Origin: Imperialibacter sp. EC-SDR9
Lineage (GTDB): Bacteria; Bacteroidota; Bacteroidia; Cytophagales; Cyclobacteriaceae
Reading direction: 5' to 3'
Assembly: GCF_902498805.1 (NCBI RefSeq)
Contig: NZ_LR701637.1
Location: 372,001 to 436,000 of the forward strand
Length of the DNA stretch: 64,000 nt
Positions 2,074 through 60,441 of this stretch are shown in pieces. Numbering within the stretch: position 1 is the first letter of the stretch; each line of letters starts with the position of its first letter. The notes below the pieces were generated by a model that had not been told where the DNA came from, searched no databases, and saw only the letters and a program-made list of their open reading frames with translations. The translations under genes and the position numbers were made by a program.

Positions 2074-2259
2074 CTAAGCAAACGCCTCATTCTTCAGGGC
2101 GAGCCTGATTTCCTTTAGCGCCTGGCTCTTTAGCCTTGCTTTGACCCGCTGATCATTTAGTTGCAGTTCTGAGATGTATTCAAGCACATCTTTTTGCTGA
2201 TCTGTCTTTAGGTTCTCCACCGAGTGAAGAATTTCCGATTGTAGATTACTCAGTTGCAT
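2074..2259 (-). CDS. Small helical protein of unknown function (61 aa)
   Basis: A charged, probably all-helical protein without signal or membrane segment. A stretch reading QQKDVLEYISEL resembles the N-terminal helix of DUF2281-type antitoxin-like proteins, but no partner toxin lies next to it, so this is only a resemblance. ATG at 2259 is preferred over the TTG four codons upstream (2271). The gene is convergent with the channel gene and the two stop codons abut. The 157 bases between this start and the end of the next gene upstream (2260-2416) contain a 6-2-6 inverted repeat at 2333-2346 and no other gene. Confidence 0.45.
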   Translation of the reverse strand: MQLSNLQSEILHSVENLKTDQQKDVLEYISELQLNDQRVKARLKSQALKEIRLALKNEAFA

Positions 2260-2416
2260 GATTTGGTACAATTAGCTACTGTAAATAACGTAATACAGCG
2301 TAACTTGTTCATTACTATTCTATTACCCTATCATTACAGATGTAATATTTCTTCCATAATCGCTGAAAACGGAGACTGCTTTCCGTATCAGAAAAGCTCT
2401 GCTTCTGAGTGCGTGG

Positions 2417-44600: not shown

Positions 44601-47600
44601 ATGAAGCATTTCAAAATTTGTTCGCAGGTAATTTCGCTTATGACAATGGTGGTGCGGCGCATGCGGATTATCTTTCCACATTCATTTCTGTCAACTCAAC
44701 TATTGTCGACAATTCATCTAACGACGGATCAGGCGGTTTGAGCTTTGACGATGGAGCTTATGTTGAAATACAAAACACCATCTTTTGGGGCAATGCCTCA
44801 GTAGCAGCACCAGAGGGGAGTCAACCAAGCATTAGGGATGGGGGATCATTTACGGTTGAAAATTCCATTGTAGAGTTTTGGGACCCGCTTGTCTATAGCG
44901 ACGTTTCGGACTATGATGTATTCGGCACCGATCCTAATTTTGTAGATGGGCCTGGTGGCGATTATGGACTTTTGTCAGGGTCGCCCGCCATTGATCTAGG
45001 CAACAATCTTTTATTGAACAATTCCGTCAACATCGACTTTCTTGATGAAGACGGGGATGGAAACTTTACCGAAAAGCTTCCTAATGACTTGGCCAATAAC
45101 CGGAGGTACACAGGGCTTAGTGTAGACCTTGGTGCTTTTGAATTTCAGGCAGGGTTCGGGCAGTTACAGGTGGCGGCGGCAAACGGGGAAATACCAACGG
45201 GTACTGTTTCCTATCCCGACACCGATGTGGTGGTGGCAGGATTGAGTGTCAGCCTCACTGACGCTGCCGATCTGGATAGGCTAGCCTTTACCACCAACGT
45301 TGACCTGTCGGCAAGCCTGGGTAACTATAGGCTCTACCATTCTACTGATGCTTTGTTCGGCACCACCGGTGACAATACCCTGATTGGCAGTAGTCCTTTT
45401 TTCTCTATGACTGATTTGGAGTTTGCCTCTATGGCGTACGGTTTAGCAATAGGTACTCACTATATTTTCCTGGTAGCAGATGCAGAACCAGAGGCCAACC
45501 CTACCCAGCCGGGTATTCAATTCAGCACAGATAATTTTGGTATTGATGTAAGCTCGGTAACGGTTGAGGCATTTAGCTACAGCGGCCCAAGTATTACCTT
45601 TGATGCTGATCCGTTATTTACGGCGACCCTTCAAAATGCGACTGGCAGTGAGGTGAATGTTTCGGCAGGAACTTCAGATATTACTTTGATGGAGTTTCTC
45701 GTGGCTGCTGATCCTTATGGAGAAGTGACCGGGTTGAAGGTCAACTTCTCATCGGATCCGGACACCTACCTGGAGAACTACCGATTAGTTATTTCACTGG
45801 ACAACAGCCTTGCTACCTTGATTGACAATGACACATACAATTCCTCTTCACTTACAGCTGGTTCAGTAGAATTTTCACCGCTTTTCGGGGGGATCTACAC
45901 CGCAGGCAGGTACTACTTCCTGGTGGCCGATGTGGCAACCGGGGCAGGAATTACGCCTTCTCCCATTACCTTTTCTGTGGATGACGCCAGTTTCACTGCA
46001 GCATTTGGAACGGTGACCGACATTGATGTTTCGAGTGATCCGTTGTCGGTTGGAGATATTGTGGCCCCGGCCACTCCCACAGCCTTGAGCCTAAGCCTTG
46101 CTGCTGCCAATGAGGTAGATGGAAGCTTCGTAGGGAGTGGAGCTTCTGGCTATTTGGTGATCAGACGCCCTGCACTAGTTGTAGCTTACAGCCCAGTTGA
46201 CGGCACAGAGTTAACGGCTGGCAGCAACCCATTAGTTGATAACCACGTGATAACTGTGGGCCCAACTACTGTCTTTACAGACGCCGGTCTTGCCAACCAA
46301 ACAGATTACACCTACGACGTGTATGCCTACAATGGCAGTGGGGCTGGCATTGTATACAGCACGACCGCATTGACCGGCAACATTACTACACTTTCGGCAA
46401 CTCCGGTCACCCCCACAGCCTTGAACCTAAGCCTTGCAGCAGCCAATGAGGTAAATGGGAGCTTTACAGGTTCTGGAGCCTTGGGCTATTTAGTGATCAG
46501 GCGTCCTACGGCAGCGGTAGCTTACAGCCCGGTTACCGGCACAGAGCTCACGGAAGGCAGTAACCCTTCTGTCGACAATACGGTAATAATGGTTGGCGCT
46601 GGCACCACGTTTACCGATAGTGGGCTGTCTTTCGAGACGGATTATACCTACGATGTATTTGGATACAATGGCAGCGGCAGCGGAATAGTGTATAGCGTTA
46701 ACCCGTTGGCCGGGAACATCCAAACAGGGGCAGAAGCGTTGCTTGCTACTGAACCGCTGAGCCAGCCCACAGCGCTTGTCCTAAGCCTGGAACCGGGCCG
46801 GCAGATGAGCGGTAACTTTACTGCGGCTGCTGACGGAGCGGAGGGGTATCTTGTGCTTCGGTACTATACGCCGACGTCTCGTACAGTACCTGAAGATGGG
46901 ACGGAATATGCGGCAGGAGCCAGCTATGCTGATCAGTACGTGGTGTATGCAGGATCAGACACAAGCTTCACCGATGACTTGTCTGGCTTAGAGCTGGGAA
47001 CATTGGTGGATTACGATGTATATGCCTACAATGGTACTGGAGCAACCATCAATTACCTGACAACAGAACCATTGACAGACAGTAGAACGCTGGAAGAAAG
47101 TTTAAGCGTAATTGTGTCTGAGGCCACTTCCATCACGACCTACAGCTTCCTGGCGAGTTGGGACTCTGTGGCCAGCGTTAGTGCTTATTTGCTTGAAGTA
47201 GCGACCGACGAATTGTTTGCCAGTCAGCTGACTGGCTTCAACCCCTTGGTTACGACGGACACCAGTGCAACAGTTAGTGGGTTGTACCACGCCACCGACT
47301 ACTTTTACAGAGTTCGAGGCTACACCGCTACCGATACTACTAATTACAGTGATACCATAAAGGTGCACACCCTTTACTCACCAGAGCTAACGTCTGACTC
47401 GACAGCGCTGGTTAAAATCTACGATGAAATGGGAGGTGCTGGCTGGAGTAGTTCAGGGAACTGGAAGGTAAGCCAGGTGAGAGGCTGGGCAGGCGTAGCA
47501 GTAACAAATAGCCGGGTGACGGCCCTCAACCTTGCCTCTAATAATGTGACGGGCGCCTTTCCAATACTGACAGGCACCGAGCTGAATGCACTACAGCAGC

Positions 47601-49576
47601 TAGACCTGGCCAATAACCAGGTCACCACGGTGCCAGCCAATGCTAACCTGTCAGCACTGTCAATATTGGACCTGTCTTCCAATCAACTGGACTTTGGTTC
47701 CTTGGAGCAGTTTGCAGGAGTAACGACGTTTAGCTACTCGCCGCAAGCTGACTTGTTTACCGCAGTTGACCTGCTTCAGGAGCGAGGAGAGCCTTTATCA
47801 ATTGACCGTACAAGTGCGGGGGCTTCAAACCAGTATCAGTGGTATAAAAACGGGACAGTCATCGACGGAGCCATCGCAGCTACCTATACAATTGACTTCC
47901 CTACGTTTGCCGAAGAGGGCGACTACACAGTTCAGGTTAGCAATAGCCTGCTACCCAACCTTACGTTGAACACATTGCCTATTACACTTCGGGTAAGCTC
48001 ATTGGAACGAGACAGGCTGGTACTGACCGAGCTTTATACCCTAACGGCTGGCGATAGCTGGACAAACAAAACCAATTGGAACACAGCTGACATAACGAGC
48101 TGGTTTGGCATCACAGTAGAGAACGACCGTGTTACAGGTATTACCCTTCCGTCGAACAACCTTGCTGGTAATGTACCCGCTCGTCTGGGCGACATGAGGA
48201 GACTTACAGTGATTGATTTGAATGACAATGAGATAAGCAGCTTGCCAGCACTAACCAACATCATACAACTCAACACCCTTGACGTTAGAAACAACCGGCT
48301 TCAGTTCGACGACCTTGAGCCTAACATAGGCATAGCGAGTATGACCTATGCACCTCAGAAGCTGACCGGCCAGGCCAGAGACGAAAAGGTAGCAGTGAAC
48401 ACAGAAGTAACAGTAGAGGTGCCAGTTGGTGGGACGGCCAATAGCTACCAGTGGTATCGCAACGGATCATCGATAGAAGCAGGAACCAGCAGCACCTATC
48501 AGCTAGGACCAATAAGGTATGAGAATATGGGAAGCTACGAGCTGGAGATAACCAATAGCAAAGTAGCTGGCCTCAGTTTGCGAAGCGAAGTACAAAGAGT
48601 CCTTGCTACTGCCGCCATTACAGGCACGACAACAGACCTGAACGAATTAAGAGTTAGCGGCGTAACAGGTGCATTGTTAGGAGTAAAAGAAGGAGCGTAT
48701 GATACGACAGGTTTATACACCAGCAGCGACAATGGCGTGTTTACAATCAACGATGTGGTATTGGGAGACTATCTGCTGTACGGTGAGCAGGACAAACAGG
48801 TATACATCCCGAGTTACTACCGTAGTACCATCGATTGGGTGTTTGCCGACCTGATCCAACTAAGAGACAATATTGGAGACCTGGCGTTAACGCTGGTTAA
48901 CGTACCGAGGGAGTTGACCCCGGCGGATGGAGACAACACGTTCAAAGGTCTTTTTGAATCGGACTTTGGGGACACTGGGGGCAGGGTTCTTGACCGAAAG
49001 CGAGTGCAGGGAGCCGGGGTAAGTGTGAGCCGCTCCAGGTTCAGAGCGAAAGACAACGAAGATGAGTATGAGCTGATCGCCTATGTTCAAACCGATGAAA
49101 CGGGTCAGTTTGAGATGAACAACTTACCTGACGGGGACTATCGAGTGAACATTCAGTATCCGGGTATCCCGATGGATCCTACTTCTTTTATCGATTTTCA
49201 GCTTGGCGGTGGCACAGGCGTTGAGCAGAACAGCATCCGTATCAATGCGCTGGCTACGCCAACCAGCATTGTGGTGACCAAGGTGGAAGAGACAGGCATC
49301 TATCTGGATTACTTCAAGGGGCTGACGGTGTACCCAAACCCGGCGGATGACTATATCACGATACGGTACGAGAAGCTTGTAAAGGGCAGGGTTGAAGCAG
49401 AGCTTATGGATTTGAACGGTCAGGCAATAATGTCGAAAGAGGTGCGGCAGGGAACCAACCAGCAGACGGTATTGGATCTGACAGATGTTAAAAACGGCTT
49501 ATATATATTGCGATTTTTTGACAAGCATAGGAATGGAGTAGAGATAGCCTCATTCAGGTTGATAGTGAAGAAGTAG
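38639..49576 (+). CDS. Giant T9SS-secreted multidomain surface adhesin (3645 aa)
   Basis: Signal peptide about 1-32. Then in order: seven beta-propeller-like repeats around V/T-D-F-D-P (about 35-495); a BspA/DUF285 region with six WDVSNVENM-type repeats (about 500-805); a GEVED domain (about 885-993) and a CARDB-like domain (about 1000-1105); a MAM-like jelly-roll from ESFESGDGG (about 1108-1298); a right-handed beta-helix ending in a choice-of-anchor Q motif (about 1304-1728); a second beta-helix (about 1735-2170); beta-sandwich units (about 2175-2470); four FN3-like domains (about 2477-2916); LRR/Ig/LRR/Ig modules (about 2920-3324); carboxypeptidase-regulatory-like units (about 3325-3500) and the T9SS type A tail (about 3558-3645, with VYPNPADDYI). 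The role is adhesion or substrate binding on the cell surface, inferred from the domains. The ATG at 38639 gives the clean signal. Confidence 0.92.
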   Translation: MKIPTTCLLKCPKVPFVLFLLLMSFGHLHYAQVIKLENASAYGTAAFEFGQAIAIHNGTNNVYTTGRFFGTVDFDPSGSVFNLTSVGDGDIFVLKQDEAGNFLWAINIGGSDLDSPGDIAVDASGNFYITGWFRDIVDFDPGVGTTNLTAAVGGGDVFVAKYDANGDLVWAKSMLSDGLSTDSGAAIAVDGSGNVYTAGSFDGTTDFDPGAGDASVIAQDLDSFFSKLDANGDFVWVKTIGASGLSTVVSDMTIDASGSVYSVGTTNGVVDLDPGIGTSNMTFSGTTATFLLKLDASGIFQWGNSMVSDDAIGITGQAIGVDATEQVYTVGYFAGVADFDPTNSPVNITATGTAVDAYISKHDDFGNFVWGRAFNGTVETLANSLVVSGLGDITVAGYFDGTTDFDPSVATQNITSAGSYDIFIVQLDPTGDIVSFAENIGSSTSEQPEDIAIDGGGRIHLTGLFDGTTDLDPNAGVSNFISAGGGDIFIASYSEYKPFITIWQTTGTSETITIPTTGTSIGYSYSVTWEEVGNEVSNNGSAGPFNDGNQPHSFVLPTVGLYRVYIAGDFPAIYFDSSGDRLKILSIEQWGDIAWADMNAAFAGCNNLIYNAIDAPDLSNVLDMSSMFSYAGSFDGDLSSWDVSNVENMRSMFEGTDSFNGNITNWQVGAVTDMYSMFSYAISFNQDIGAWDVGSVEDMSYMFSGASSFDIDISGWQVGNVTNMFHMFEDATIFNQDIGGWDVSQVFEMRSMFSNATAFDQNLGAWDIGSLNSTSGDNMLDNSGLSKANYDALLMGWADDNGATEIIPTGLTLGAAGLTYCSSAADRQVLITNYSWTFAGDTEDCPTEHCASAATDAADSKIVAFSMGGVSTTNTLSCETYTDYSSEIILVAPESVNAFSLDVGTCNGDYDKIAKIFVDWNNDFVFSPGELVYTSTVSLSPTNFSDDITVPIDAATNALLKLRIVLMETTVAGDVQACGTYDYGETEDYSIYVSDATTNAGVTAITSPLTAPTGDYQVKARITNLGQDPIQNFNVSYEINPGAITATEMFTATINPLQTQEYAFTSLANLASVGTYQLAVSITLAGDEVPADNVFNADIEIIEPIAAFPYFESFESGDGGWMVGGSNPSWDSGFPSGSVINDAADGAQVFTTSLESSYNENEDSYIESPFFDVSGLTNPTFRFSLIYDMNFNAGDGLETFDYANDIAYIEYSSTDGLWHVLGQASDPNWYNVSSDPPAGTVSGTDGWSDGSGGWQEYSYNLSTINLTGPVRFRVRFLTNETSETSYDGVGFDKVYLYDDVPTSLIVTSTADAGPGTLRQAILDASTVSVDTVRFNLPASSQITVLSTLDIGTKQLVINGYEVDNLVINGSGDVDQGSGVFGVRLFNASAPLTLSHLGFTNVNYTNALIDGNIGALLTIKEDLNIEHCSFFGNTMVGQPMFHLMDEFFGAGPQVLVNESSFTGNSLTGASGTIFNILGDCQVLIDNSVFDGNVTDYDGGAIYAEKGFISTENTTFEANEAYLGGAVAGASSTVYLIFSNSTFNNNIANSGGAISYSGNSLVTISRSTISGNSAINYGGAIEVTAGSLNIYSSTITLNQGNSDSDGTGYAGGIYFNSLGAVTLNNTILAGNLDDTYPDAFGDFTSADYNLVGDNSGMTFSPLTNDLVGDNTTPIDALLEPLADNGGPTLTHLPGVGSPAIDAGSPAEGNEYDQRGAPRFDGNPDIGSVEAGSRVPTVIYVNATASGLDDGTSWADAFVDLQDALTFAISGDQIWLANGVYLPDGADAGNTSLSFVIAQNDLEIFGGFDATETDLSQRFADPAQTVLSGDLNGDDDFNFTNMADNSNNVLIVSNVQGVFLDGFTISGGNATTSGGGIYSSNTDLSLNNMVVEYNQAGTSGGGVYITSGEVTFLKTHFQNNNATVGGGVYLDASEPFIYRSIFQYNSAVQGAGLYLSSSNLTNQTPGYYNKFIGNSQNGVTGGGLYLSESYYEAFQNLFAGNFAYDNGGAAHADYLSTFISVNSTIVDNSSNDGSGGLSFDDGAYVEIQNTIFWGNASVAAPEGSQPSIRDGGSFTVENSIVEFWDPLVYSDVSDYDVFGTDPNFVDGPGGDYGLLSGSPAIDLGNNLLLNNSVNIDFLDEDGDGNFTEKLPNDLANNRRYTGLSVDLGAFEFQAGFGQLQVAAANGEIPTGTVSYPDTDVVVAGLSVSLTDAADLDRLAFTTNVDLSASLGNYRLYHSTDALFGTTGDNTLIGSSPFFSMTDLEFASMAYGLAIGTHYIFLVADAEPEANPTQPGIQFSTDNFGIDVSSVTVEAFSYSGPSITFDADPLFTATLQNATGSEVNVSAGTSDITLMEFLVAADPYGEVTGLKVNFSSDPDTYLENYRLVISLDNSLATLIDNDTYNSSSLTAGSVEFSPLFGGIYTAGRYYFLVADVATGAGITPSPITFSVDDASFTAAFGTVTDIDVSSDPLSVGDIVAPATPTALSLSLAAANEVDGSFVGSGASGYLVIRRPALVVAYSPVDGTELTAGSNPLVDNHVITVGPTTVFTDAGLANQTDYTYDVYAYNGSGAGIVYSTTALTGNITTLSATPVTPTALNLSLAAANEVNGSFTGSGALGYLVIRRPTAAVAYSPVTGTELTEGSNPSVDNTVIMVGAGTTFTDSGLSFETDYTYDVFGYNGSGSGIVYSVNPLAGNIQTGAEALLATEPLSQPTALVLSLEPGRQMSGNFTAAADGAEGYLVLRYYTPTSRTVPEDGTEYAAGASYADQYVVYAGSDTSFTDDLSGLELGTLVDYDVYAYNGTGATINYLTTEPLTDSRTLEESLSVIVSEATSITTYSFLASWDSVASVSAYLLEVATDELFASQLTGFNPLVTTDTSATVSGLYHATDYFYRVRGYTATDTTNYSDTIKVHTLYSPELTSDSTALVKIYDEMGGAGWSSSGNWKVSQVRGWAGVAVTNSRVTALNLASNNVTGAFPILTGTELNALQQLDLANNQVTTVPANANLSALSILDLSSNQLDFGSLEQFAGVTTFSYSPQADLFTAVDLLQERGEPLSIDRTSAGASNQYQWYKNGTVIDGAIAATYTIDFPTFAEEGDYTVQVSNSLLPNLTLNTLPITLRVSSLERDRLVLTELYTLTAGDSWTNKTNWNTADITSWFGITVENDRVTGITLPSNNLAGNVPARLGDMRRLTVIDLNDNEISSLPALTNIIQLNTLDVRNNRLQFDDLEPNIGIASMTYAPQKLTGQARDEKVAVNTEVTVEVPVGGTANSYQWYRNGSSIEAGTSSTYQLGPIRYENMGSYELEITNSKVAGLSLRSEVQRVLATAAITGTTTDLNELRVSGVTGALLGVKEGAYDTTGLYTSSDNGVFTINDVVLGDYLLYGEQDKQVYIPSYYRSTIDWVFADLIQLRDNIGDLALTLVNVPRELTPADGDNTFKGLFESDFGDTGGRVLDRKRVQGAGVSVSRSRFRAKDNEDEYELIAYVQTDETGQFEMNNLPDGDYRVNIQYPGIPMDPTSFIDFQLGGGTGVEQNSIRINALATPTSIVVTKVEETGIYLDYFKGLTVYPNPADDYITIRYEKLVKGRVEAELMDLNGQAIMSKEVRQGTNQQTVLDLTDVKNGLYILRFFDKHRNGVEIASFRLIVKK
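46066..46737 (+). repeat. Two tandem 336-bp repeats inside the adhesin gene
   Basis: Units 46066-46401 and 46402-46737 each encode one FN3-like domain of 112 residues. Both begin with closely similar DNA (ACAGCCTTG-A/G-CCTAAGCC and then CAATGAGGTA), so the duplication is recent. A third, more diverged copy starts near 46756. Confidence 0.6.
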
Positions 49577-49712
49577 CCAGGAATCACATGCGATTCTGAT
49601 GGGTAAATTTTTTTAACGCAAGTAGTTGTATTTCAGTATATTATGTGCTATGTTCTAATCTGTTATAGCTGCTCAGCCGATAATTTGCACCTGCAATCTA
49701 ACCTTCGATTGT

Positions 49713-52700
49713 ATGAAACTTGCTTTCAGAGGTCTCATGGTACTCATCATTTTTTTTAGCTGGCAAAACCTTTTTGGGCAAAGCCGCAATGAGATGGGGA
49801 TTCCACTAATAACGAATTTCAGCCATAAAGAAACTGGAGGGCACGCTCAAAACTGGGCCACAACTCAGGATGAAAAAGGAGTGCTGTACTTTGCCAATAC
49901 CAATGGGGTTTTAGAGTTTGATGGCGTTCGATGGAGGATAATTGAAACAAAAACGGGCCTGTTTTTCTCTCTCGCTAAAGATGAAAGCAATAGAATTTTC
50001 GCTGGCGGCTATGACGAAATCGGCTATCTGGCACCGGATTCAATCGGGCAAATGCAGTTTGTATCCCTCAAGTCTGAAGTGGGGGAGGAAAATAAGGACT
50101 TTAGAAATATGCGAAGAACCTTCTCGACACCTGAAGGGACTTATTTTTGTGGGTATAGTCACATTCTCCGATGGGATGGGTCGAAAATGAAGACTTGGCA
50201 GTCAGGCGAAAATGCATTCGGCATCTCATTTTTTGTAAACAATGATTTCTATGTGCAGCAGCGAAATGTGGGTCTTCTGAAGCTTGTCGCAGACTCTCTG
50301 CAGCTGGTGCCGGGGAGTGAGAAACTGATGGACAAGCGATTCTATTTTATGCTTGGGAATAAAGCTGGTGGGGGCTTGGTCATTGGGACATCAAATGATG
50401 GACTTTACCACTTCGACGGGACAGAATTTTCAGTGTTTCCCACTGAAATTGATGCTTTTCTTAAGGAAAGCCTGCTTTATCATGGCATTTGGTTAGAGGA
50501 TGGAAGCATGATGCTAAGTACCATACTGGGGGGAACCGTAGTAGTTACAGGTGGTGGGGAGTTAAAATACAGACTTCATACTGGGAACGGGCTTCAAAAT
50601 GATGCGGTTCACGCTGCATTTGTTGACTATAGTGGTGCCGTATGGTTGGCGCTCGACAACGGAATAAGTAAGGTTGACGTTGCATCTCCAATTACTCGTT
50701 TTGACCAAAAAAATGGTGTTCGTGGCATAGTGAATTCCATTATCAGGCATGACAATGAACTCTATGTAGCAACGGGCCATGAAGTCTCAAGAATGCGGAA
50801 TGATAAGGACGGCGCAATGTTCAGTGGCATTGAGGGGGCCAATAGTGCCTGGTCTTTTCTGACGATCGACCGTTCTTTAGTAGTTGCCACCGATTTTGGT
50901 ATTAAGGTATTGACTAAAAGCGGCTTCGAGCAAGTTCCTGTAGCTCCTCAGGGATATCGCCAACTTTATCAATCTCCGCAAAACCCAGACATTGTTTACG
51001 GCGGCACTACCGATGGCGTAGCAGTGTTCGAAGTGAAAGGCGAAAAATGGGAGAGTCTCGGAAAACTACCTGATGTCGGAGGGGAAATCCGCCGAATGCT
51101 GGTCGTGGATAGTATTCTTTGGCTTAGCACCTTTCATCGTGGTATTTATCGACTGAAAACGAATCCGGGCTCCCCGCTTGAGATTCAGGAGACGCAGCTG
51201 TATGATACGCTGGGAGGCCTGCCCTCCATGGTTGAAAATTTCGTTTATCCATACGGAGGAGGTAAGGTAATAGTCACCCACCGTGGTATTTTTCAGTTTG
51301 ATGCTGGGCTGAATAAATTTCGACCTGATTCTACTTTTGGAGACATGCTGGCCAATGGCTCTCATGCCGCCTATAGCTTTGAGGAAGGGACTGATGGTAG
51401 AGCATGGATACATGTATACAATCGTGATAAGAAGGTTAGGGATACTGGCTATGCAAAAAGGGGAGAAGATGGAAAGTACGCCTGGGTGAATAACGCATTT
51501 GCGGGATTGGAAGACGTCAACCTTTTTTATATCTATTCAGAGCCCAATGGCATTACCTGGCTGGGGGGCAACGATCTTTTGTTGCGACATGACAATAGCG
51601 TCTCAGTTAATTATGATAGACCTTTCAATACACTCATAAGGCGGGTTATCATCAAAAGTGATTCCTTGATTTTTGGAGGTAACCAGAAGGAAGAGGCAAT
51701 GGTAGTCTCCAAATTCGAGTTCCCGAACAACTTCATACGGTTTCAATTTGCGGCAACCAGTTTCGACTTTGCAGAAAAAAACGAATACCAGACTATGCTG
51801 GGAGGATATGATGAAGACTGGTCGGCCTGGACAACGGAGACACAAAAAGACTTTACGAACTTGTCTGAAGGGTCTTATACTTTCTATGTACGAGGGAGAA
51901 ACATTTATGGTGTACAGGGCAAAGTCGATTCCTATGTTTTTTTGATCCTTCCGCCATGGTATCGCACCTGGTGGGCATTTGTCATTTACCTGGCGTTGTT
52001 TGTGGGAACGATACAGTTGACTATTCGTCGGCGCTCCAAACAACTTAAAGAAGAAAAATTGGTGCTTGAACGCATTGTAGCACAGCGAACACAAGAAATC
52101 GAGCAAAAGAATGCACAGCTTGAGGAGCAGGCCAGGCAGCTTCAGGAAATGGACAAAGTGAAATCTAACTTCTTTGCCAATATTTCCCATGAGTTTCGAA
52201 CACCGCTCACCCTAATACTTGGCCCGCTAAACGATCGGGCGGATGGCAACGATGCAGTGATGCCGGGCAGCGTGCTGAGCATGATGAAGTCCAACGCCGA
52301 CCGGCTTTTGCGCTTGATCAACCAGCTTTTGGATCTGTCGAAGCTGGAGACCGGCTTGCTGAAGTTAGAAGCTGCAAAATATGATTTTGTATCATTTGTG
52401 AAAGGGCTGACCAGATCATTTGACTCGCTGGCAGAGCGCCGGGGGTTGACGTTGTCTATTTACTCGGAGGTAGACTCGCTGGACATTTTTTTTGATGTAG
52501 ACAAAATTGAAAAAGTCTTTTTTAATCTAATCACTAACGCAATTAAGTTCACAGAAGACGGCGGAAGCGTCAGTTTGACCATAAGAGAATTACAAGAATC
52601 CGTCGAAATTGATGTGGCGGATTCAGGCATTGGAATCCCTGAAGATCAACTGAAAAATATTTTCGAGAGGTTTTATCAGGTAGATAGCTCAATAACTAGA

Positions 52701-53699
52701 TTTCAGGAAGGTTCAGGGATCGGGCTGGCGCTGACCCGGGAACTTGTTGAGCTTCATCATGGGTCAATTAGTGTCAGTAGTACCAGAGACAAGGGTACAG
52801 TGTTTACTGTCAAATTGCTTAAAGGAAGCGCTCACTTTGGGAAAGACGAAATTGTTGCAGAAAAAGTGACCGCCGATGTTGCCACAAAGCCGGCTAAAAG
52901 CAAAGTTTTGACAGAGACTGGCATAGTGGCTGACGATGGCCGCCTTGTCGTGCTGGTAGTTGAAGACAATCCGGATGTGAGAGCCTATATCAAAAGCCAA
53001 CTGGAGGGACAGTTTAGAATTCTTGAAGCAGGCGATGGAGAAGAAGGGTTGGCTATGTCTAAAGAAAAGGTACCCGATTTGATCATCAGCGATGTAATGA
53101 TGCCGGTCATGGATGGGTATACGTTGACGAAGAAATTGAAGGAACATGTTGGCACTTCCCATATTCCTGTTGTGCTTCTGACCGCCAGGGCCGACAGTGA
53201 AGATAAAATAGAAGGGCTTGTAACCGGAGCTGATGACTATTTAACCAAGCCATTTGACGGAAAAGAGTTGGCTGTACGGATTGACAACCTGATTAATATC
53301 AGACAAAAGTTGAGGGAAAGAATCCGCCAGCAGGTTTTGTTGGAGCCGAGTTCAGTAGAAGCCATGTCAATGGACGAAACTTTTATCAGAAAAGCGGTGG
53401 CGCTAGTGGAGAAGCATCTGGCAGATTCGGAATTAAATGTAGAATGGCTGAGTGACGAAATGGCCATGAGTCGGATGCACCTCCACCGTAAGCTGAAGGC
53501 ACTTACTGACCAGTCGCCCAGCGAGTTCATCAGATCCATCCGCTTGAAGCGGGCTCATCAGCTTATCCGGCAGAGGAGCGCCACCGTGACAGAAATTGCC
53601 TTTGAGGTGGGCTTCAATAACCTTTCTTATTTTTCGAAATGCTTCAAAGAAGAGTATGGTCTGCTGCCCTCGGAACTTGAGGAAAAATCAAGCCACTAG
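49713..53699 (+). CDS. Hybrid two-component sensor with AraC output (HTCS)
   Basis: A 1328-residue one-protein signalling system. Signal peptide about 1-23; a periplasmic two-component-regulator propeller (about 30-670) with a terminal Y_Y_Y domain (about 673-740); one transmembrane helix (about 749-771); a coiled-coil; HisKA with His826 (NISHEFRTPL) and a HATPase domain; a receiver with Asp1127 (ISDVMMPVMDG) and Lys in LTKPF; and an AraC-type double HTH (about 1222-1328, ending in GLLPSELEE). HTCSs of Bacteroidota sense glycan fragments or surface signals and activate neighbouring outer-membrane gene clusters. Its placement between two giant adhesin genes suggests that it controls this island. 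The gene follows the adhesin by 136 bases. Confidence 0.93.
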   Translation: MKLAFRGLMVLIIFFSWQNLFGQSRNEMGIPLITNFSHKETGGHAQNWATTQDEKGVLYFANTNGVLEFDGVRWRIIETKTGLFFSLAKDESNRIFAGGYDEIGYLAPDSIGQMQFVSLKSEVGEENKDFRNMRRTFSTPEGTYFCGYSHILRWDGSKMKTWQSGENAFGISFFVNNDFYVQQRNVGLLKLVADSLQLVPGSEKLMDKRFYFMLGNKAGGGLVIGTSNDGLYHFDGTEFSVFPTEIDAFLKESLLYHGIWLEDGSMMLSTILGGTVVVTGGGELKYRLHTGNGLQNDAVHAAFVDYSGAVWLALDNGISKVDVASPITRFDQKNGVRGIVNSIIRHDNELYVATGHEVSRMRNDKDGAMFSGIEGANSAWSFLTIDRSLVVATDFGIKVLTKSGFEQVPVAPQGYRQLYQSPQNPDIVYGGTTDGVAVFEVKGEKWESLGKLPDVGGEIRRMLVVDSILWLSTFHRGIYRLKTNPGSPLEIQETQLYDTLGGLPSMVENFVYPYGGGKVIVTHRGIFQFDAGLNKFRPDSTFGDMLANGSHAAYSFEEGTDGRAWIHVYNRDKKVRDTGYAKRGEDGKYAWVNNAFAGLEDVNLFYIYSEPNGITWLGGNDLLLRHDNSVSVNYDRPFNTLIRRVIIKSDSLIFGGNQKEEAMVVSKFEFPNNFIRFQFAATSFDFAEKNEYQTMLGGYDEDWSAWTTETQKDFTNLSEGSYTFYVRGRNIYGVQGKVDSYVFLILPPWYRTWWAFVIYLALFVGTIQLTIRRRSKQLKEEKLVLERIVAQRTQEIEQKNAQLEEQARQLQEMDKVKSNFFANISHEFRTPLTLILGPLNDRADGNDAVMPGSVLSMMKSNADRLLRLINQLLDLSKLETGLLKLEAAKYDFVSFVKGLTRSFDSLAERRGLTLSIYSEVDSLDIFFDVDKIEKVFFNLITNAIKFTEDGGSVSLTIRELQESVEIDVADSGIGIPEDQLKNIFERFYQVDSSITRFQEGSGIGLALTRELVELHHGSISVSSTRDKGTVFTVKLLKGSAHFGKDEIVAEKVTADVATKPAKSKVLTETGIVADDGRLVVLVVEDNPDVRAYIKSQLEGQFRILEAGDGEEGLAMSKEKVPDLIISDVMMPVMDGYTLTKKLKEHVGTSHIPVVLLTARADSEDKIEGLVTGADDYLTKPFDGKELAVRIDNLINIRQKLRERIRQQVLLEPSSVEAMSMDETFIRKAVALVEKHLADSELNVEWLSDEMAMSRMHLHRKLKALTDQSPSEFIRSIRLKRAHQLIRQRSATVTEIAFEVGFNNLSYFSKCFKEEYGLLPSELEEKSSH

Positions 53700-53851
53700 G
53701 TACTTCTGAGATTTTTTGGGCTATATGTTACATCTGTGTGAGTCCGTGTTACGTGGCTGTTAGCATGCAGGTATCTGAGGGCCGAACTTGAAGCTATGAA
53801 AAAGCCAAAAGGCTGATCATCAGCTAAAGTTTTTAACTAACTCTCAGGATC

Positions 53852-54982
53852 ATGAAAACCTTTTTTAAGCAAAAAAATGGGCTTGCCTTTCTTTTGGGGA
53901 TGCTTATGACTTACTTCGGAAGTGCTCAAAACATTTTGACGGCGGATAGAAACCCGGGGGCAGTAGCCGTGCCGGGTGCTGTTTTTGTTGGTTCAACAGC
54001 TCTGCAGGACGCCATTGCGGCGGCGGCGGATGATGACATTATTCACGTAATACGGAGCTCCAGCAGTTATGGAGCAATCATTATTGACAAGCGACTTAAT
54101 ATTTTTGGAATTGGGCTTTTTCCGGATACTGATGGCTCCAGCAGATCCTTCGTAACCACTGTCGAGATAGCCGACCCGGCGGCAAGCGGTACCCGGATAT
54201 CGGGAATGGTTATTTCCGCATCACTTACTCTCGGCGGTGTTGCCGGGACTCTAAGCAATTTGCTTCTTGAAAACAGTCAGATACTAAGAATTCAGCATGA
54301 AGGAAGCACAACCACACTCAACAACATCATAATTAGAAATAATTTGCTTGGGCATGGAATTGGCACTTCAACGGAGGAAACAATAGACTTATTGGCGGGG
54401 TATGTTTCCAACGTGGTTATTGCAAACAATGTTATTTATGGTTCAAGTGGTTCAGATTGTTGCAACGCACAGCAGGGGACACTGACAACAGACCTCAGCA
54501 CCATCGAAAACAATTTGTTCATACACAACGATGGGATCAGTAGCGGCTGGTTCGCTTTCGAAGAGCTCAGAAACAGCATAGTGAAAAACAACATTTTTTA
54601 CGGTATTGGGCCAAGGGGAAAAGTGGTACTTTCCAATAACACTTTTGAAAACAATTTGAGTTTTACCAGCAAGGCCACTCAAGGATTTCTCACTACTGGT
54701 GGCAACACAAGTGTTAATAATATTACTGGTCAAGACCCTCTTTTTGTCAATGTATCATTTGGAACGGGAGTTCCCTCTCTCTCAACATTTGACCCAACCC
54801 TGGATACGGGCTCACCTGCTCTTGGCTCAGGCACCAATGGCACCGACATGGGTGTGTATGGAGGCCCAATCCCTTTTAATTTGGAGGGCACTTTAATACC
54901 CACCATTCAGGTGCTCGATGTTCCTTCTATGGTGATTGAAGGCAATGACTTGAATGTGCACATCCAGGCCAAAGGAAACTAG
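53852..54982 (+). CDS. Secreted right-handed beta-helix protein (376 aa)
   Basis: Signal peptide cut after AQN (about residue 26). The mature protein is rungs of short strands with repeated NNI, NNL and NNT turns (about 100-270), typical of a pectate-lyase-like right-handed helix. It ends in a proline- and valine-rich tail (VLDVPSMVIEGNDLNV) and HIQAKGN rather than a T9SS tail. No carbohydrate-active catalytic residues were located. Only 20 bases separate it from the next gene, so they are probably cotranscribed. My memory of similar Bacteroidota pairs is that this small helix protein commonly precedes a D-x-D-P-G repeat adhesin; that is not checked. Confidence 0.75.
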   Translation: MKTFFKQKNGLAFLLGMLMTYFGSAQNILTADRNPGAVAVPGAVFVGSTALQDAIAAAADDDIIHVIRSSSSYGAIIIDKRLNIFGIGLFPDTDGSSRSFVTTVEIADPAASGTRISGMVISASLTLGGVAGTLSNLLLENSQILRIQHEGSTTTLNNIIIRNNLLGHGIGTSTEETIDLLAGYVSNVVIANNVIYGSSGSDCCNAQQGTLTTDLSTIENNLFIHNDGISSGWFAFEELRNSIVKNNIFYGIGPRGKVVLSNNTFENNLSFTSKATQGFLTTGGNTSVNNITGQDPLFVNVSFGTGVPSLSTFDPTLDTGSPALGSGTNGTDMGVYGGPIPFNLEGTLIPTIQVLDVPSMVIEGNDLNVHIQAKGN

Positions 54983-55002
54983 TACAGCTCATCCCGAAAA
55001 AG

Positions 55003-58000
55003 ATGAAAAAGCTTCTTTCCATTCTGGGGTTGATATGCTGTGCGCAATTTGGGCTGGCACAAGCGCCGCAAATAGCGGCCATGGAATACTATGTAGATGC
55101 CGACCCAGGTTTTGGTGGTGGTACCAGCGTTTTTGTCACACCCGGCGCTCAGGTGGATTTTAACTTCACCGTGCCCACTGGCTCGCTTACACCAGGCATG
55201 CATACATTGTACGTTCGCTCAATGGATGAGAACAACGTATGGAGTCATTTTGAAAGAAGAGCTTTTTTTATCAGTCAATCCACAACCGAAACACGCAACA
55301 ACATAGTAAGTATGGAGTATTACCTTGACTCTGATCCTGGTCAGGGTAATGGAACGCCGGTGGCGGTGACGCCGTCCGCTTATGTCGATGTTTTTGAGCT
55401 GATCCCCACGGCGTTCCTTAGCTCCGGTTTTCATAACATCTATTTCAGGGTGCAGGACGCATCCGGTCAGTGGAGTGCAGCAGAGCATCGGCCATTTTTC
55501 GTTAGCCAGTCGACCAGTGAGGTTCGAAATGACATTGATGCCGTAGAGTATTTCATAGATGTTGATCCGGGTCAGGGCAACGGTGTGGCCGTAGCAGTAA
55601 CACCATCCACAGATGCAGACCTGATAGAGCAAGTTCCAACTTCATCGTTAAGTGCCGGCTTTCACAAGGTTTATTTCAGGGTGCGTGATGCCTCCGGTCA
55701 GTGGAGTGCTACGGAGCATCGGCCATTTTTCATTAGCCAGTCGACCAGTGAGGTTCGAAACGACATTGATGCCGTAGAGTATTTCATAGATGTTGACCCG
55801 GGTCAGGGCAACGGTGTGGCCGTAGCAGTAACACCGTCCACAGATGTAGACCTGCTGGAGCAAATCCCAACAACTTCCCTAAGTGCTGGCTTTCACACGG
55901 TCTATTTCAGACTGCGTGACGCCTCCGGTCAGTGGAGCGCTACGGAGCATCGGCCATTTTTCCTTAGCCAGTCGACCAGCGAAGTTCGAAATGACATTGA
56001 TGCCGTAGAGTATTTCATAGATGTTGATCCGGGTCAGGGCAACGGAGTGGCCGTAGCAGTAACACCATCCACAGATGTAGACCTGATGGAGCAAATTCCC
56101 ACGACTTCCTTAAGCACTGGCTTTCACACGGTCTATTTCAGGGTGCGTGATGCCTCCGGTCAGTGGAGTGCGACGGAGCGCAAGCCATTTTTCATCACCA
56201 CCTCGAGTGTTGAGGGCCAAAATACCATTACCTCGTTGGAATACTTTTTTGATGTGGATCCGGGGCATGGAAACGGTTTGGCGCTGGCCATTTCTCCGGG
56301 AACCCTGGTTGATGCTGCTGTTCCCATACCTATTGGATCACTTTCTCCCGGGATGCATACGCTTCATATCAGGGCCCTGGATGATAGGGGGCAGTGGAGC
56401 CATATTGAATCAAGACCCTTTTTTAGAGACGGGACAAGGCTGATAACTACTGTTGAATACGCCATAGATACAGACCCCGGCGTGGGTCAGGCCACCCAGG
56501 TGGTTGTAGCTTCTCCCCAAAATCCCATTGATGAAAATGTCAGCATACCTATTGCCGTCAATTCGTTAAGTAGTGGCAGCCATAACCTTTTAACGAGGGT
56601 AAAAGATGGAAATGGAGCATGGAGCTTAACAAATACTACTGCCTTCGAACTGCTAAGCTTTTCTCTTATGATAGACAGTGTGGCCCTTGATTCTATTTAC
56701 AGGAAAACGGCTGGCGCAAGTTGGGTAAATAGCACCAATTGGTTCAATGTGGATCTCAACACCTGGTACGGAATAGACACACTGGGAGGCAGGGTGCAAG
56801 CGGTGAGCTTGGGCAGTAATAATTTGGAGGGCGGTTTCCCCTATGAATTGGCCTACTTATCTGAAGCAGTCAGTATTGATCTGTCGGATAACTTTTTGGC
56901 TGACAGTGTCCCTGAGCAGATAGTGAATTTGCAGGCGCTGACCAGTTTTAATATCAGCAACAACGAACTGACCCACTTGCCCGACATGAGCTCACTCGGG
57001 CTGCTCTCCTCGTTTGATGTGAGCAACAATCGATTCACCTTTGAAGATTTAGAGCCAAACGTAGGCATCATCACCGTCAATGCAGGACAGAAGCCATTCG
57101 GCCTGAGCCAAACAATTGGACTAAATGCAGGAGATAATCAAACATTGGCATTTGCAGTCGGTGGAATAAACAACGAATACCAGTGGGAGAAGGACGGCCA
57201 AGATATTGTCGGTGCCACATCTGACACCTACGAAATACCAAACTTTGGCCCACTGGATCTCGGTGTATATAAACTGAGGGTAACCAACACTGTGGTTACG
57301 GAGCTGACCCTCATAAGTGAGCCAATCACCATTAAATCGCCGGCATCGGTTCTTTCTATTACAAAAAACGATGCCAACCCAAATAACTTTTCTTCAGTTA
57401 GCTGGACTGTCGCCTTCGACCAGCCGGTGACCGGTGTTTCCGAAGCAAATTTCTCGCTTGTCGAATCCGGCGTAGCTAGTCCAATCTTAACTGCTGTATC
57501 AGATGTAGATGGGGTCAACTGGCTCGTTGCGGCAGAATTTGGTGCAGCCGGGGGCACCCTGGGCCTGGATTTCACCGATAACACTGGAGTTTTGCCAGGC
57601 GTTATCAGCATCCCCTTCAATGGAGAAGTGTATAGCATCGACAACATCCCGGCCACTGCTGACACCGTGATTGTGCAAAGCGGGCCCGTGAATCTCGATT
57701 CACAGTTATTAGACTTCGACATACTAAATGGAGAGATAGGAGCAACGTTTGAGTATTTTATTAATAGCGAGGCGGACAGCAGTGCCCTGACAATAAGTGG
57801 AAGTGACACTATTACCTCTGACCCAGAGCGCCTTACCGAAATAGATTTGGCCAGCTTGGCCGACGGTATTATCAGCGTTAAAGTTGTTTTAACCGATAGT
57901 CTTGGCAACCGGGGCGATACAATTAGTACCGAAGGGCTAAAAGACATTGTTCCCCCCACAGCCACTTTGAGTTACAGCTTGCCTCAGCCAGCAATGACAG

Positions 58001-60441
58001 GCATCATACTTGTTGACGTCCAATTTTCAGAAGCAGTCACCAATCTGACAAGCCAGGATTTTGAGGTGCTCAATGGTGTCGTGGATACAATTGTCCAAAT
58101 CAACGCCTCAAATTATCAGCTTATCTTGTTGGTCACCGCAGACATTGCGTTGTTACAGGCAAGTCTTCGGTCGGTAGGTGTGACGGACTTAGCAGGGAAT
58201 CTCGCAGAAAATAGTAGTGTGCTTGAAATCCGGAAAATCAAGGATGGCGTCATCGCATCTGACTCCCTGGCTCTTGTACGCCTATATGAATCTCTTGACG
58301 GAGCTAATTGGGTCAATAATACTAATTGGCTTGCACCTGGCCAGAAAATTGAGAACTGGTTTGGAGTAACGGCATCCCTGTCAAGGATAACAGGCATTGA
58401 TTTGTCTGCAAACGGCCTCAGAGGAGCCGTGCCCGATGATATTCTTGTGCTTGATTCATTGAGAACCCTCAATGTCAGCAATAATCAGATTACCGGTGTA
58501 CCCAACCTGAAATCACTGACACTTTCTACCACCAACGTTGCTGGTAATGTTCTTGATTTTGCCTCACTGGAACCCAATATAGGGCTAGCCTCTTTCACGT
58601 TTTCGCCACAGGCTCCACTTCTTACCCAGGTTGATACGCTTCAGGAGAGAGGGGAAAGCCTGACCTTGGATCGCCAGGTCGGCGGCAGCGCAAACAATTA
58701 TCAGTGGTTTAAAAATGAAATCTCAATCGGGGATGCTGCCGGGGTCAATCATACGATCGATTTTCCAACATTTGCCGACGAGGGCAACTACTATGTAGAA
58801 GTTACCAGTAGTATCGTTCCGGGGCTGACGTTAACAACTATGCCTGTAGCACTCAGGGTGAGCTCTCTCGAGCGTGACAGGTTATTGTTGGAGGAACTGT
58901 ATAACTCAACCAGTGGGGACAACTGGATAAATAATTCGGGATGGAACACGGCCGATTTATCTTCCTGGTTTGGTATAACAGTTACCAGCGATAGAGTAAG
59001 CGGGATTGACTTGCCCGCAAACAACCTTTCAGGTGACTTGCCGGGATTTCTGGGCGATATGAGGAAGCTAACGAACATCGATTTATCGGCAAATGAAATC
59101 ACCAGCCTCCCGGGGTTGGCAAATATCATTCAGCTTACCCTACTTAATGTCTCGGACAACAGACTACAGTTTGATGACCTCGAGCCAAACATCAACATTT
59201 CCAGCCTGGTATATAGTCCACAAAAATTGGCGGGAGTAATGTTGGAAGAGCTGGTGCCGGTGGGTGCTGATTACATTCTTGGCGTATCGATTGGTGGCAG
59301 TGCCAATAGTTATCAGTGGTTCAGAAATGGCGTGGAGTTAGAGGGAGGAGATGTGGCAGAGTACACTATTGATGGAATAGACTTCAATAAGATGGGCGAC
59401 TACCAACTGGAAGTGACCAATTCTAAGGTAGCTGGCCTGACTATCAAAAGTAGGGTGCAACGAGTTTTAGCTACAGCCAGCCTTTCGGGTAGGATAACAG
59501 ACAAAAGCGAACTTCCGATAAGTGATGCTCTTGGCGCACTACTTATAGTCAAGTCAGGTGCCTACGATACCACAGGGCACTTTAGAAGCGAGCTAAACGG
59601 CACATTTTTCATCGAAGATGTTGTTCTGGGGGACTATCTGCTTTATGCTGAGCAGGATATAGAAGTCTTTTTACCAAGCTTTTACAAAAGCACCATCGAT
59701 TGGGCCTTTGCTGATCTTCTTCAGCTCCGTGGCAATGTTGGTGAACTGGTGCTTACGATGGAGGGTGTTTTGCCTGTATTGACCCTGGCAGACGGCGACA
59801 ATACATTCAGCGGGTTGTTTGAGTCAGATTTTGGAGATGCTGACGGGAGGGTATTTGACAGAAAGAGAGTGAAAGGAGCGGGAGTAAGCGTGAGTCGTTC
59901 ACGATTTAGGGCGAAGGATAATGACGAGGACTACGAGCTAATAGCCTATGTGCAAACCGACGCAAATGGTGAATTTGAAATGAACAATTTGCCCGACGGA
60001 GATTACCGGCTCAACATTCAATATCCGGGTATTCCAATGGATCCGACATCTTTTGTTGATTTTCAACTCGGAGGAGGAAGCGGAGTAGAACAAAATAGCA
60101 TCAGAGTAAATGCATTTGCCAGTCCGGAATCTATTGTGGTGACAAAAGTCGAAGAAACAGGCATCTATCTCGATTACTTCAAAGGGCTGAAAGTGTATCC
60201 GAACCCAGCGGATAAATTCTTGACAATCCGTTATGAGAAATTGGTGAGGAGTGACGTAGTAGCCGACCTGATGGACTTGACGGGACAGACGATAAGAAGT
60301 GCTAGTCTTGAGCAGGGCTCTAATGGGCAGGCTCTTCTTGATGTTGATGGCGTAAGAGCAGGAATTTATATACTGCGATTTTACGATACAGCAGAAAATG
60401 GGGCTGGTATTATTTCACTAAGAATAATTATAAGCAGATAG
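55003..60441 (+). CDS. T9SS-secreted repeat adhesin (1812 aa)
   Basis: Signal peptide about 1-20. Seven tandem repeats of about 77 residues (about 24-550) carry the motif EYFIDVDPGQGNG, then FRVRDASGQWS; three of them are nearly identical. Then LRR and Ig-like domains (about 556-780), three beta-sandwich domains (about 785-1075, the first starting SVLSITKNDANPNNFSS), LRR/Ig/LRR/Ig modules (about 1085-1490), a carboxypeptidase-regulatory-like unit and the T9SS type A tail (about 1725-1812, VYPNPADKFL). From the second-last LRR onward the protein follows the C-terminus of the 3645-residue adhesin very closely. It is probably a surface adhesin or receptor; no enzyme motif is seen. The ATG at 55003 gives a clean signal peptide. 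Confidence 0.92.
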   Translation: MKKLLSILGLICCAQFGLAQAPQIAAMEYYVDADPGFGGGTSVFVTPGAQVDFNFTVPTGSLTPGMHTLYVRSMDENNVWSHFERRAFFISQSTTETRNNIVSMEYYLDSDPGQGNGTPVAVTPSAYVDVFELIPTAFLSSGFHNIYFRVQDASGQWSAAEHRPFFVSQSTSEVRNDIDAVEYFIDVDPGQGNGVAVAVTPSTDADLIEQVPTSSLSAGFHKVYFRVRDASGQWSATEHRPFFISQSTSEVRNDIDAVEYFIDVDPGQGNGVAVAVTPSTDVDLLEQIPTTSLSAGFHTVYFRLRDASGQWSATEHRPFFLSQSTSEVRNDIDAVEYFIDVDPGQGNGVAVAVTPSTDVDLMEQIPTTSLSTGFHTVYFRVRDASGQWSATERKPFFITTSSVEGQNTITSLEYFFDVDPGHGNGLALAISPGTLVDAAVPIPIGSLSPGMHTLHIRALDDRGQWSHIESRPFFRDGTRLITTVEYAIDTDPGVGQATQVVVASPQNPIDENVSIPIAVNSLSSGSHNLLTRVKDGNGAWSLTNTTAFELLSFSLMIDSVALDSIYRKTAGASWVNSTNWFNVDLNTWYGIDTLGGRVQAVSLGSNNLEGGFPYELAYLSEAVSIDLSDNFLADSVPEQIVNLQALTSFNISNNELTHLPDMSSLGLLSSFDVSNNRFTFEDLEPNVGIITVNAGQKPFGLSQTIGLNAGDNQTLAFAVGGINNEYQWEKDGQDIVGATSDTYEIPNFGPLDLGVYKLRVTNTVVTELTLISEPITIKSPASVLSITKNDANPNNFSSVSWTVAFDQPVTGVSEANFSLVESGVASPILTAVSDVDGVNWLVAAEFGAAGGTLGLDFTDNTGVLPGVISIPFNGEVYSIDNIPATADTVIVQSGPVNLDSQLLDFDILNGEIGATFEYFINSEADSSALTISGSDTITSDPERLTEIDLASLADGIISVKVVLTDSLGNRGDTISTEGLKDIVPPTATLSYSLPQPAMTGIILVDVQFSEAVTNLTSQDFEVLNGVVDTIVQINASNYQLILLVTADIALLQASLRSVGVTDLAGNLAENSSVLEIRKIKDGVIASDSLALVRLYESLDGANWVNNTNWLAPGQKIENWFGVTASLSRITGIDLSANGLRGAVPDDILVLDSLRTLNVSNNQITGVPNLKSLTLSTTNVAGNVLDFASLEPNIGLASFTFSPQAPLLTQVDTLQERGESLTLDRQVGGSANNYQWFKNEISIGDAAGVNHTIDFPTFADEGNYYVEVTSSIVPGLTLTTMPVALRVSSLERDRLLLEELYNSTSGDNWINNSGWNTADLSSWFGITVTSDRVSGIDLPANNLSGDLPGFLGDMRKLTNIDLSANEITSLPGLANIIQLTLLNVSDNRLQFDDLEPNINISSLVYSPQKLAGVMLEELVPVGADYILGVSIGGSANSYQWFRNGVELEGGDVAEYTIDGIDFNKMGDYQLEVTNSKVAGLTIKSRVQRVLATASLSGRITDKSELPISDALGALLIVKSGAYDTTGHFRSELNGTFFIEDVVLGDYLLYAEQDIEVFLPSFYKSTIDWAFADLLQLRGNVGELVLTMEGVLPVLTLADGDNTFSGLFESDFGDADGRVFDRKRVKGAGVSVSRSRFRAKDNDEDYELIAYVQTDANGEFEMNNLPDGDYRLNIQYPGIPMDPTSFVDFQLGGGSGVEQNSIRVNAFASPESIVVTKVEETGIYLDYFKGLKVYPNPADKFLTIRYEKLVRSDVVADLMDLTGQTIRSASLEQGSNGQALLDVDGVRAGIYILRFYDTAENGAGIISLRIIISR
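55519..56211 (+). repeat. Three near-identical 231-bp tandem repeats
   Basis: Copies start at 55519, 55750 and 55981, exactly 231 bases apart, each encoding one 77-residue unit. The DNA is nearly identical, including synonymous positions, whereas the flanking repeats (55288 and 56212 onward) are diverged. This is a recent slippage- or recombination-driven expansion. Confidence 0.9.

Follow-up and report, generated by a model that had tools for sequence, protein, structure and literature searches.

The stretch of DNA that we analysed, here called the window, comprises 64,000 nucleotides of the 6.8-Mb genome of Imperialibacter sp. EC-SDR9 (genome G000, C2:372001-436000). It contains two large genes, A and B, whose products carry type A tails of the type 9 secretion system (T9SS), together with a sensor gene, the gene P4 and the start of a fibre-like gene. 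The features are as follows:

38639..49576, +, protein A (3645 aa), T9SS type A cargo
38639..43858, +, outer head of A (residues 1-1740), with SBBP beta-propeller, DUF285, GEVED and further domains (Pfam)
43859..47347, +, middle part of A (residues 1741-2903), homologous to A1 of the sister species G001, about 40-71% identical, fourfold sites near saturation
47348..49573, +, stalk of A (residues 2904-3645)
47348..48601, +, A stalk LRR1-Ig1 (2904-3118), LRR2 (3119-3240) and Ig2 (3241-3321) (Pfam and model)
48602..48949, +, A stalk TTL1, first beta-sandwich (3322-3437), putatively carboxypeptidase-regulatory-like from its sequence pattern
48950..49306, +, A stalk TTL2, transthyretin-like (3438-3556), the part most alike within genomes
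49061..49324, +, A residues 3475-3562, counterpart of the A1/B1 conversion tract of G001
49307..49573, +, linker and type A T9SS tail domain of A (Por_Secre_tail, 44.6 bits, cut-off 27)
49713..53699, +, hybrid two-component sensor with HisKA, HATPase, receiver and AraC-type HTH (Pfam), 95% identical in G001
53852..54982, +, P4 (376 aa), no Pfam match, no recognised T9SS tail
55003..60441, +, protein B (1812 aa), T9SS type A cargo
55003..58212, +, head side of B (residues 1-1070), with YFIDVDPG-motif repeats and Big domains (Pfam)
56632..57369, +, extra LRR-Ig unit in the head side of B (residues 544-789)
58213..60438, +, stalk of B (residues 1071-1812)
60608..64000, +, 5' part of the fibre-like gene F (1542 aa whole), which continues past the window and lies directly upstream of C

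Both A and B begin with hydrophobic N-termini that end in YAQ or LAQ (read by eye). The head of B includes a tandem repeat at 55439-56195 (231 bp, 3.3 copies, 89% match), and its counterpart B1 in the sister species is 77 residues shorter at this repeat, which is one repeat length.

A sequence-only reading of the window had proposed that A and B display unrelated adhesin heads on one shared C-terminal stalk, and had suggested pairwise protein and DNA alignments of the two. BLASTP of A against B aligns residues 2904-3633 with 1071-1800 at 59.9% identity over 734 columns with 8 gaps (900 bits), and the alignment continues to the final residues of both proteins. The stalk is thus about 740 residues long; its homology begins some 16 residues before position 47396, where that reading had placed the start. 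Pfam and an AlphaFold2 model bear out the same C-terminal order in both proteins (LRR-Ig-LRR-Ig-CarboxypepD_reg-Por_Secre_tail), with the CarboxypepD_reg and Ig_3 matches under the curated cut-offs in A and above them in B, and the segments SRSRFRAKDN and YLDYFKGL are present in each. At the DNA level the stalks are similar over 687 bp (71%) and 114 bp (68%). Two further BLASTP matches pair the A stalk with the extra LRR-Ig copy of B at 544-789. In line with the claim of different heads, no BLASTP match at 1e-3 links A 1-2903 to B 1-1070.

Identity between the A and B stalks varies by part, from 0.44 in LRR1-Ig1, 0.68 in LRR2 and 0.49 in Ig2 to 0.63 in TTL1, 0.86 in TTL2 and 0.57 in the tail. 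The peak is therefore TTL2 (86%), the domain preceding the tail, against 57% in the tail domain itself, which is more than generic LRR/Ig likeness with ordinary tail conservation. Only 38% of the 430 identical residues are encoded by identical codons and third codon positions agree at only 0.36, so the relation between the two stalks is old. A recent A/B duplication in the window's genome is ruled out by this codon identity of 0.38 among identical residues.

The AlphaFold2 model of the A stalk (50 alignment rows) has a mean pLDDT of 89.7 and a pTM of 0.63. Its best match to LRR ectodomains has a Z of 16.2, but with an rmsd of 17 across two domains; a single-domain LRR match gives Z 14.7 (2.3 A over 119 residues). 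Residues 530-651 of the model superpose on transthyretin with Z 12.1 (2.1 A over 102 residues, 22% identity). A Foldseek search of the PDB with the whole stalk returned generic Ig arrays only, with TM-scores near 0.1, and the Aureispira grappling-hook protein GhpA appears among the Foldseek matches at this generic Ig level (TM-score about 0.1, 10-12% identity).

The genome search for further stalks that had been proposed yields two more, C (C2:437248-439755, 835 aa, one LRR-Ig unit), with a stalk 50% identical to that of A, and D (C2:460468-469392, 2974 aa), with a stalk 37% identical to that of A. Both are found downstream of B, at distances of up to 37 kb, and all four stalks fall within 50 kb. 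Proteins on contigs C41 and C43 have a distant stalk match in the last part only, and the C41 protein carries the propeller head of A (37% over 499 columns) without an A-type stalk. The stalk occurs on 4 of the 64 type A tail matches in the genome (62 of which are above cut-off). The idea of one stalk with different heads and more copies therefore holds up, but not as a genome-wide standard, which these numbers rule out. The number of LRR-Ig units per stalk ranges from 1 to 6; the stalks of L094 (G003) and L096 (G072) have 6 and 5 consecutive units, so that rod length varies by whole units.

The tails of all four proteins score above the curated Por_Secre_tail (PF18962) cut-off of 27 (A 44.6, B 38.2, C 41.3 and D 38 bits), and the type B tail CHU_C (PF13585) is absent from their Pfam matches at E <= 0.01. 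The SprA family TIGR04189 is found in both G000 and the sister species G001, split over two contig ends in G000. The PorP_SprF family is also found in both, with 14 PF11751 matches in G000, none of them within C2:410-470 kb and thus none near C. Taken together, the tail domain and SprA suggest that the stalk proteins are exported by the T9SS and may serve in adhesion. No toxin family came up when A, B, C, D and most of A1 were scanned with Pfam; the heads are partly without matches.

The genus is represented in our sample by two genomes, G000 and its sister species G001, which has the whole cluster in the same gene order. When A is compared with the syntenic A1 in blocks of 100, residues 2901-3645 are 73-97% identical and residues 1701-2900 are 40-71% identical. 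Residues 1480-1740 align weakly, and residues 1-1480 have no BLASTP match in A1 at 1e-3. Pfam finds SBBP, DUF285 and GEVED domains in the A head, and FG-GAP repeats with a LamG-type domain in that of A1 (scanned beyond the first 416 residues of A1). Fourfold sites differ by 0.14-0.46 in 3001-3645 and by 0.54-0.80 in 1601-3000; the sensor gene and six further genes of the region differ between G000 and G001 by 0.10-0.47. D shows a similar gradient, from 0.60-0.66 (residues 1-800) through 0.53-0.42 (801-1400) to 0.26-0.39 (1401-2974). B and C are each 90% identical overall between the two species; the C head is 85% identical, with only 72 of its first 100 residues alike. The B stalk is more diverged than the B head, in part owing to conversion in B1 (described below).

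Head replacement between the sister species is therefore clear at A, partial at D, where it affects the N-terminal quarter, and lacking at B and C. The first two loci bear out an exchange of heads above a stalk that is kept, but the B and C heads are largely conserved. As to whether heads recombine at the stalk boundary, a check that had been proposed, the transition between A and A1 at the start of the stalk is graded over about residues 2900-2990, with no sharp breakpoint. In F (L021:609-5237), which has a VGIGT-type N terminus, the first 650 residues are kept in G001, with stretches of 100% DNA identity, and after a sharp break at about residue 680 the C-terminal part is different.

As a control, 42 cargo genes fetched from G000 and 40 from G001 gave 27 reciprocal best pairs, leaving 15 and 13 loci, respectively, without a partner. 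The 22 pairs with tails at least 80% identical were taken as orthologues, and the 5 pairs with poorer tails, which may be non-orthologous, were not counted. Eighteen of the 22 pairs lack any 100-residue block below 60% identity, and the other 4 have 1 to 7 such blocks. One pair of the 22, L168/L215, has a saturated N-terminal stretch over an ordinary tail, showing that such an N terminus is not unique to the stalk proteins. L168 (G000:C2:525700-530700) is a T9SS cargo with a conserved tail and an N-terminal stretch saturated at silent sites.

Gene conversion between stalks is directly visible in G001. A1 and B1 share a run of 125 identical bp, within a tract in which 254 of 264 positions agree as against 1094 of 1911 (57%) outside it; the longest identical run was 37 in 2000 site shuffles and 33 in 2000 codon shuffles. 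The tract corresponds to A 3475-3562. Within it B1 is 0.920 identical to A of the window and 0.754 identical to its own counterpart B, indicating that A-type sequence was copied into B1. At the right border B1 returns immediately to B type, and the left border is ragged over about 50 residues. This is the only conversion tract among the 63 within-genome stalk pairs, with no other pair having a 40-codon window above 0.87, and no A/B tract is found in the window's own genome.

The stalk core is matched at E <= 1e-20 in 38 of 146 genomes (own included). We built a stalk tree from 50 full-length stalk proteins of 18 genomes, chosen among the matches listed and including two from L060 (Marinoscillum sp.), one of 12 contig-scan loci. 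The partial stalks L113, L114, L115 and L116 were left out, with L113 taken as a C head in the C-head tree and the upstream-gene comparison below. The genome label changes 23 times on this tree, for a minimum of 17 and a shuffled mean of 39.9; the exceptions are D of G000 and G001, which falls apart from A, B and C, and G008, which is also split. Trees of individual stalk parts (17 genomes, with G001 out and LRR1-Ig1 left out; shuffled means about 36.5) need 25 genome changes for LRR2-Ig2, 20 for TTL1, 17 for TTL2 and 21 for the tail. TTL2 also has the greatest excess of mean identity within genomes (0.686 over 63 pairs) over that between genomes (0.419 over 1146 pairs), with the other parts at 0.37-0.44 within and 0.27-0.38 between. 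Except for D of G000 and G001, paralogous stalks are thus closer to each other within a genome than to their counterparts elsewhere, the pattern by which concerted evolution is recognised.

The heads behave differently. Two head types recur by head BLAST among the matches listed, B (7 rows) and C (10 rows), with the partial B-type matches L086 and L104 counted as other. With G001 removed, the B type requires 6 changes for 6 rows on the stalk tree and the C type 8 changes for 9 rows, so that both are scattered about maximally. With the G001 rows kept, AU tests reject a single clade for B (p 6e-69) and for C (p 1.4e-5), values to be read in the light of the head types having been assigned after the stalk tree was seen, as the test assumes groups named beforehand. 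The trees thus indicate that stalks group by genome and that heads follow their own history.

Matches to the C head are more widespread than the stalk, occurring at E <= 1e-5 in 55 of 146 genomes (own included). We chose 20 stalkless C heads, mostly from frames of about 400 aa, a choice that favours stand-alone proteins. The stalk model matches none of these 20 frames, 19 of which are 375-464 aa long and one of which (L143) was cut to 1002 aa; L143 is a large stalkless C-head protein with an end that resembles a type A tail (by eye). All 10 stand-alone C-head proteins scanned (of the 20 fetched) have a CHU_C type B tail. A gene of about 300-390 aa follows closely downstream at 15 of the 17 stand-alone loci with longer flanks, and every one of the 10 such genes scanned (of 15) is PorP_SprF. 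In the window's genome, by contrast, the C head is carried by the stalk with its type A tail.

A C-head tree, made without L143 (score under 60), has 3 changes between stalk and no stalk (bootstrap 3-4), and a single stalk-bearing clade is not rejected (p 0.275). The tree therefore allows one origin, or a few, of the stalk-bearing C heads. The C head itself (L021:5249-6109) has no Pfam match, and its model (pLDDT 94) has no PDB Foldseek match at E <= 0.001. The N-terminal half of the model resembles a beta-helix; the top structural match, a tapirin domain (Z 10.4, 121 residues), may reflect only a shared beta-helix arrangement.

Both head types tend to keep an upstream neighbour. Of the 17 type B loci, 11 have an F-like gene, recognised by BLAST, ahead of the C head, 3 have another gene there and 3 have no BLAST match. 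Leaving C itself aside, 10 C heads were examined on stalks; an F-like gene precedes 7 of them at E <= 1e-10 (G001, G048 twice, G059, G060, G061 and G087), one has a weak F-like match and two have none, with some upstream genes truncated where the retrieved sequence ends. P4 precedes B by 20 bp, and P4-like sequence (34-58% identity) is found upstream of B-type heads at all five loci from other genera. Neither F nor P4 has a Pfam match, and hence neither has a recognised T9SS tail. A piece of a sensor homologue (68%) also precedes P4-B in G087 (L073). The B and C heads are thus long-lived types, mostly with an upstream partner gene of their own, and the label of adhesin heads that had been given to this system may be wrong for them.

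Sequence shows that the stalk is shared and that stalks group by genome; it also shows the one conversion tract, the replaced head of A, the C head on two types of tail and the conserved partner genes. We consider it likely that this is an array for T9SS surface display, in which the stalk recombines and is homogenised and the heads are either exchangeable or dock partners. Secretion, anchoring, docking, adhesion or glycan binding, and control by the neighbouring sensor would be the functional side of this interpretation. The T9SS recognises the tail of its cargo, cuts it off and replaces it with a surface anchor. Each large protein would have a signal-peptide-like N terminus, a head, a rod-like stalk of LRR-Ig units with two beta-sandwich domains, and a type A tail; once the tail had been replaced by the surface anchor, TTL2 would lie nearest the cell and the head outermost. 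Stalks would trade sequence by gene conversion and so become homogenised within one genome. Because the stalk would be the shared, recombining part, heads could change while export was kept. Some heads would have been replaced, as at A and the outer part of D, and others long kept and tied to an upstream partner without a recognised tail, P4 with B and F with C. The B head probably docks P4, and the C head probably docks F, to the surface. A C head on the stalk and type A tail would have a different anchor from a C head on a type B tail.

Because a sensor gene lies between A and P4, glycan capture has to be taken seriously as an alternative. Hybrid sensors of this kind often govern polysaccharide loci, and the LamG-type domain in the A1 head would suit a locus for glycan capture or degradation, with heads that are carbohydrate-binding or catalytic and not adhesins. 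Against this, Pfam named no glycoside hydrolase or SusC/D-type family in A, B, C, D, F, P4, the sensor or most of A1, and we regard such a function as possible but not the one to be expected.

The grouping of stalks could also have arisen by plain old paralogy, in which the stalk was duplicated in each lineage, fused to different heads and left to diverge in the ordinary way, the conversion tract being incidental. Duplication of the stalk onto pre-existing heads in each lineage could give much of the grouping, because in the pairs without a tract identical codons are mostly about as frequent as between genomes. That 62 of the 63 within-genome pairs lack a conversion tract, that A and B share codons at just 38% of their identical residues, and that the C-head tree allows one or few stalk-bearing origins (3 changes, p 0.275) would all fit such a history. 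However, in G000, G024, G048, G060 and G061 the stalks of C heads group on the stalk tree with stalks of the same genome that bear other heads, and that of G059 is in a clade shared with G069. Later duplication does not easily give such placement if C heads joined the stalk once or a few times, and in G001 conversion is directly visible. Paralogy as the whole account thus seems to us rather doubtful.

A more specific form of the display array, which we put forward as a speculation that is unlikely as it stands, concerns the part of the stalk next to the anchor. TTL2 and the linker might be a genome-private coupler, kept alike by conversion and selection, that fits the surface anchor of the lineage or gathers the members of the array; heads, including those that dock partner proteins lacking a tail, could then be exchanged freely or could trade a type B/PorP anchor for one of type A. 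Transthyretin, which TTL2 resembles, is a tetramer.

Fast adaptive change in place, with no recombinational replacement, could be envisaged for the heads of A and D, given that the middle of A and the N terminus of D can still be aligned and that the gradient in D is gradual. It is made improbable by near-saturation at fourfold sites (0.54-0.80 in A 1601-3000 and 0.60-0.66 in D 1-800), where the A stalk reaches only 0.14-0.46 and the sensor and six regional genes 0.10-0.47, and by the lack of any BLASTP match in A1 for A 1-1480. That the stalks share only generic LRR/Ig and T9SS-tail similarity, for which the generic Ig arrays in the whole-model Foldseek search (TM-scores near 0.1) and the weak matches of distant tails elsewhere in the genome could be cited, is ruled out for practical purposes by an alignment of 59.9% identity over 734 columns with 8 gaps in which identity is highest outside the tail.

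The point of most interest is that stalk and head have decoupled histories, with a conversion tract visible in the transthyretin-like domain, and that this tract marks the most homogenised domain. This bears on the open question of how Bacteroidota diversify T9SS surface proteins yet keep them exportable. The locus offers a testable case, with different heads on the same stalk and a natural change between type A and type B anchors within a single head family. If the docking proposal is true, T9SS cargo would also hold in place exported partners that themselves lack a T9SS signal.

Among the matches listed in a search of the open literature, no paper was recognisable from its title or the start of its abstract as being about this stalk, although one may still exist in print. 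The proteins resemble known T9SS type A cargo, the class for whose tail TIGR04183 is named in PMC7073777, in having tails above the curated cut-off in a genome with SprA. They differ from it in the LRR-Ig and transthyretin-like stalk of about 740 residues that precedes the tail and is alike within genomes. In P. gingivalis, as far as the consulted sections of PMC9143113 describe it, PorU removes type A tails and A-LPS replaces them, and type B proteins are proposed to remain on PorP-like partners; in F. johnsoniae, according to the portion of PMC12618676 consulted, tails decide the destination of cargo. The stand-alone C heads of relatives, with CHU_C and a downstream PorP_SprF where scanned, are like the type B cargo that has a PorP/SprF shuttle, SprB and PG1035, as portrayed in those parts of PMC9143113 and PMC12618676, and the C head of the window's genome is unlike it in being borne by the stalk, in ending in a type A tail and in lacking a nearby PorP_SprF match.

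A constant delivery part combined with exchangeable parts, near T9SS cargo, recalls the polymorphic toxins of Bacteroidetes (TANFOR) as they appear in the excerpt of PMC7073777, but here the constant end is C-terminal and no toxin domain is recognised. Giant1-5 of Apilactobacillus kunkeei are likewise giant secreted proteins, encoded one after another, that share a C-terminal segment and for which many recombination tracts are predicted; in the passages of PMC12863079 that we drew on they belong to a lactic acid bacterium and have DUF5776 C termini and other repeats, and no T9SS or LRR-Ig stalk is described there. Concerted evolution of prokaryotic paralogues, as outlined in PMC6053082, likewise makes paralogues of one genome more alike than their counterparts elsewhere, but here it is confined to a stalk module inside otherwise different proteins. 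What is already known is modular T9SS cargo, and the A/B stalk system is a new variant of it.
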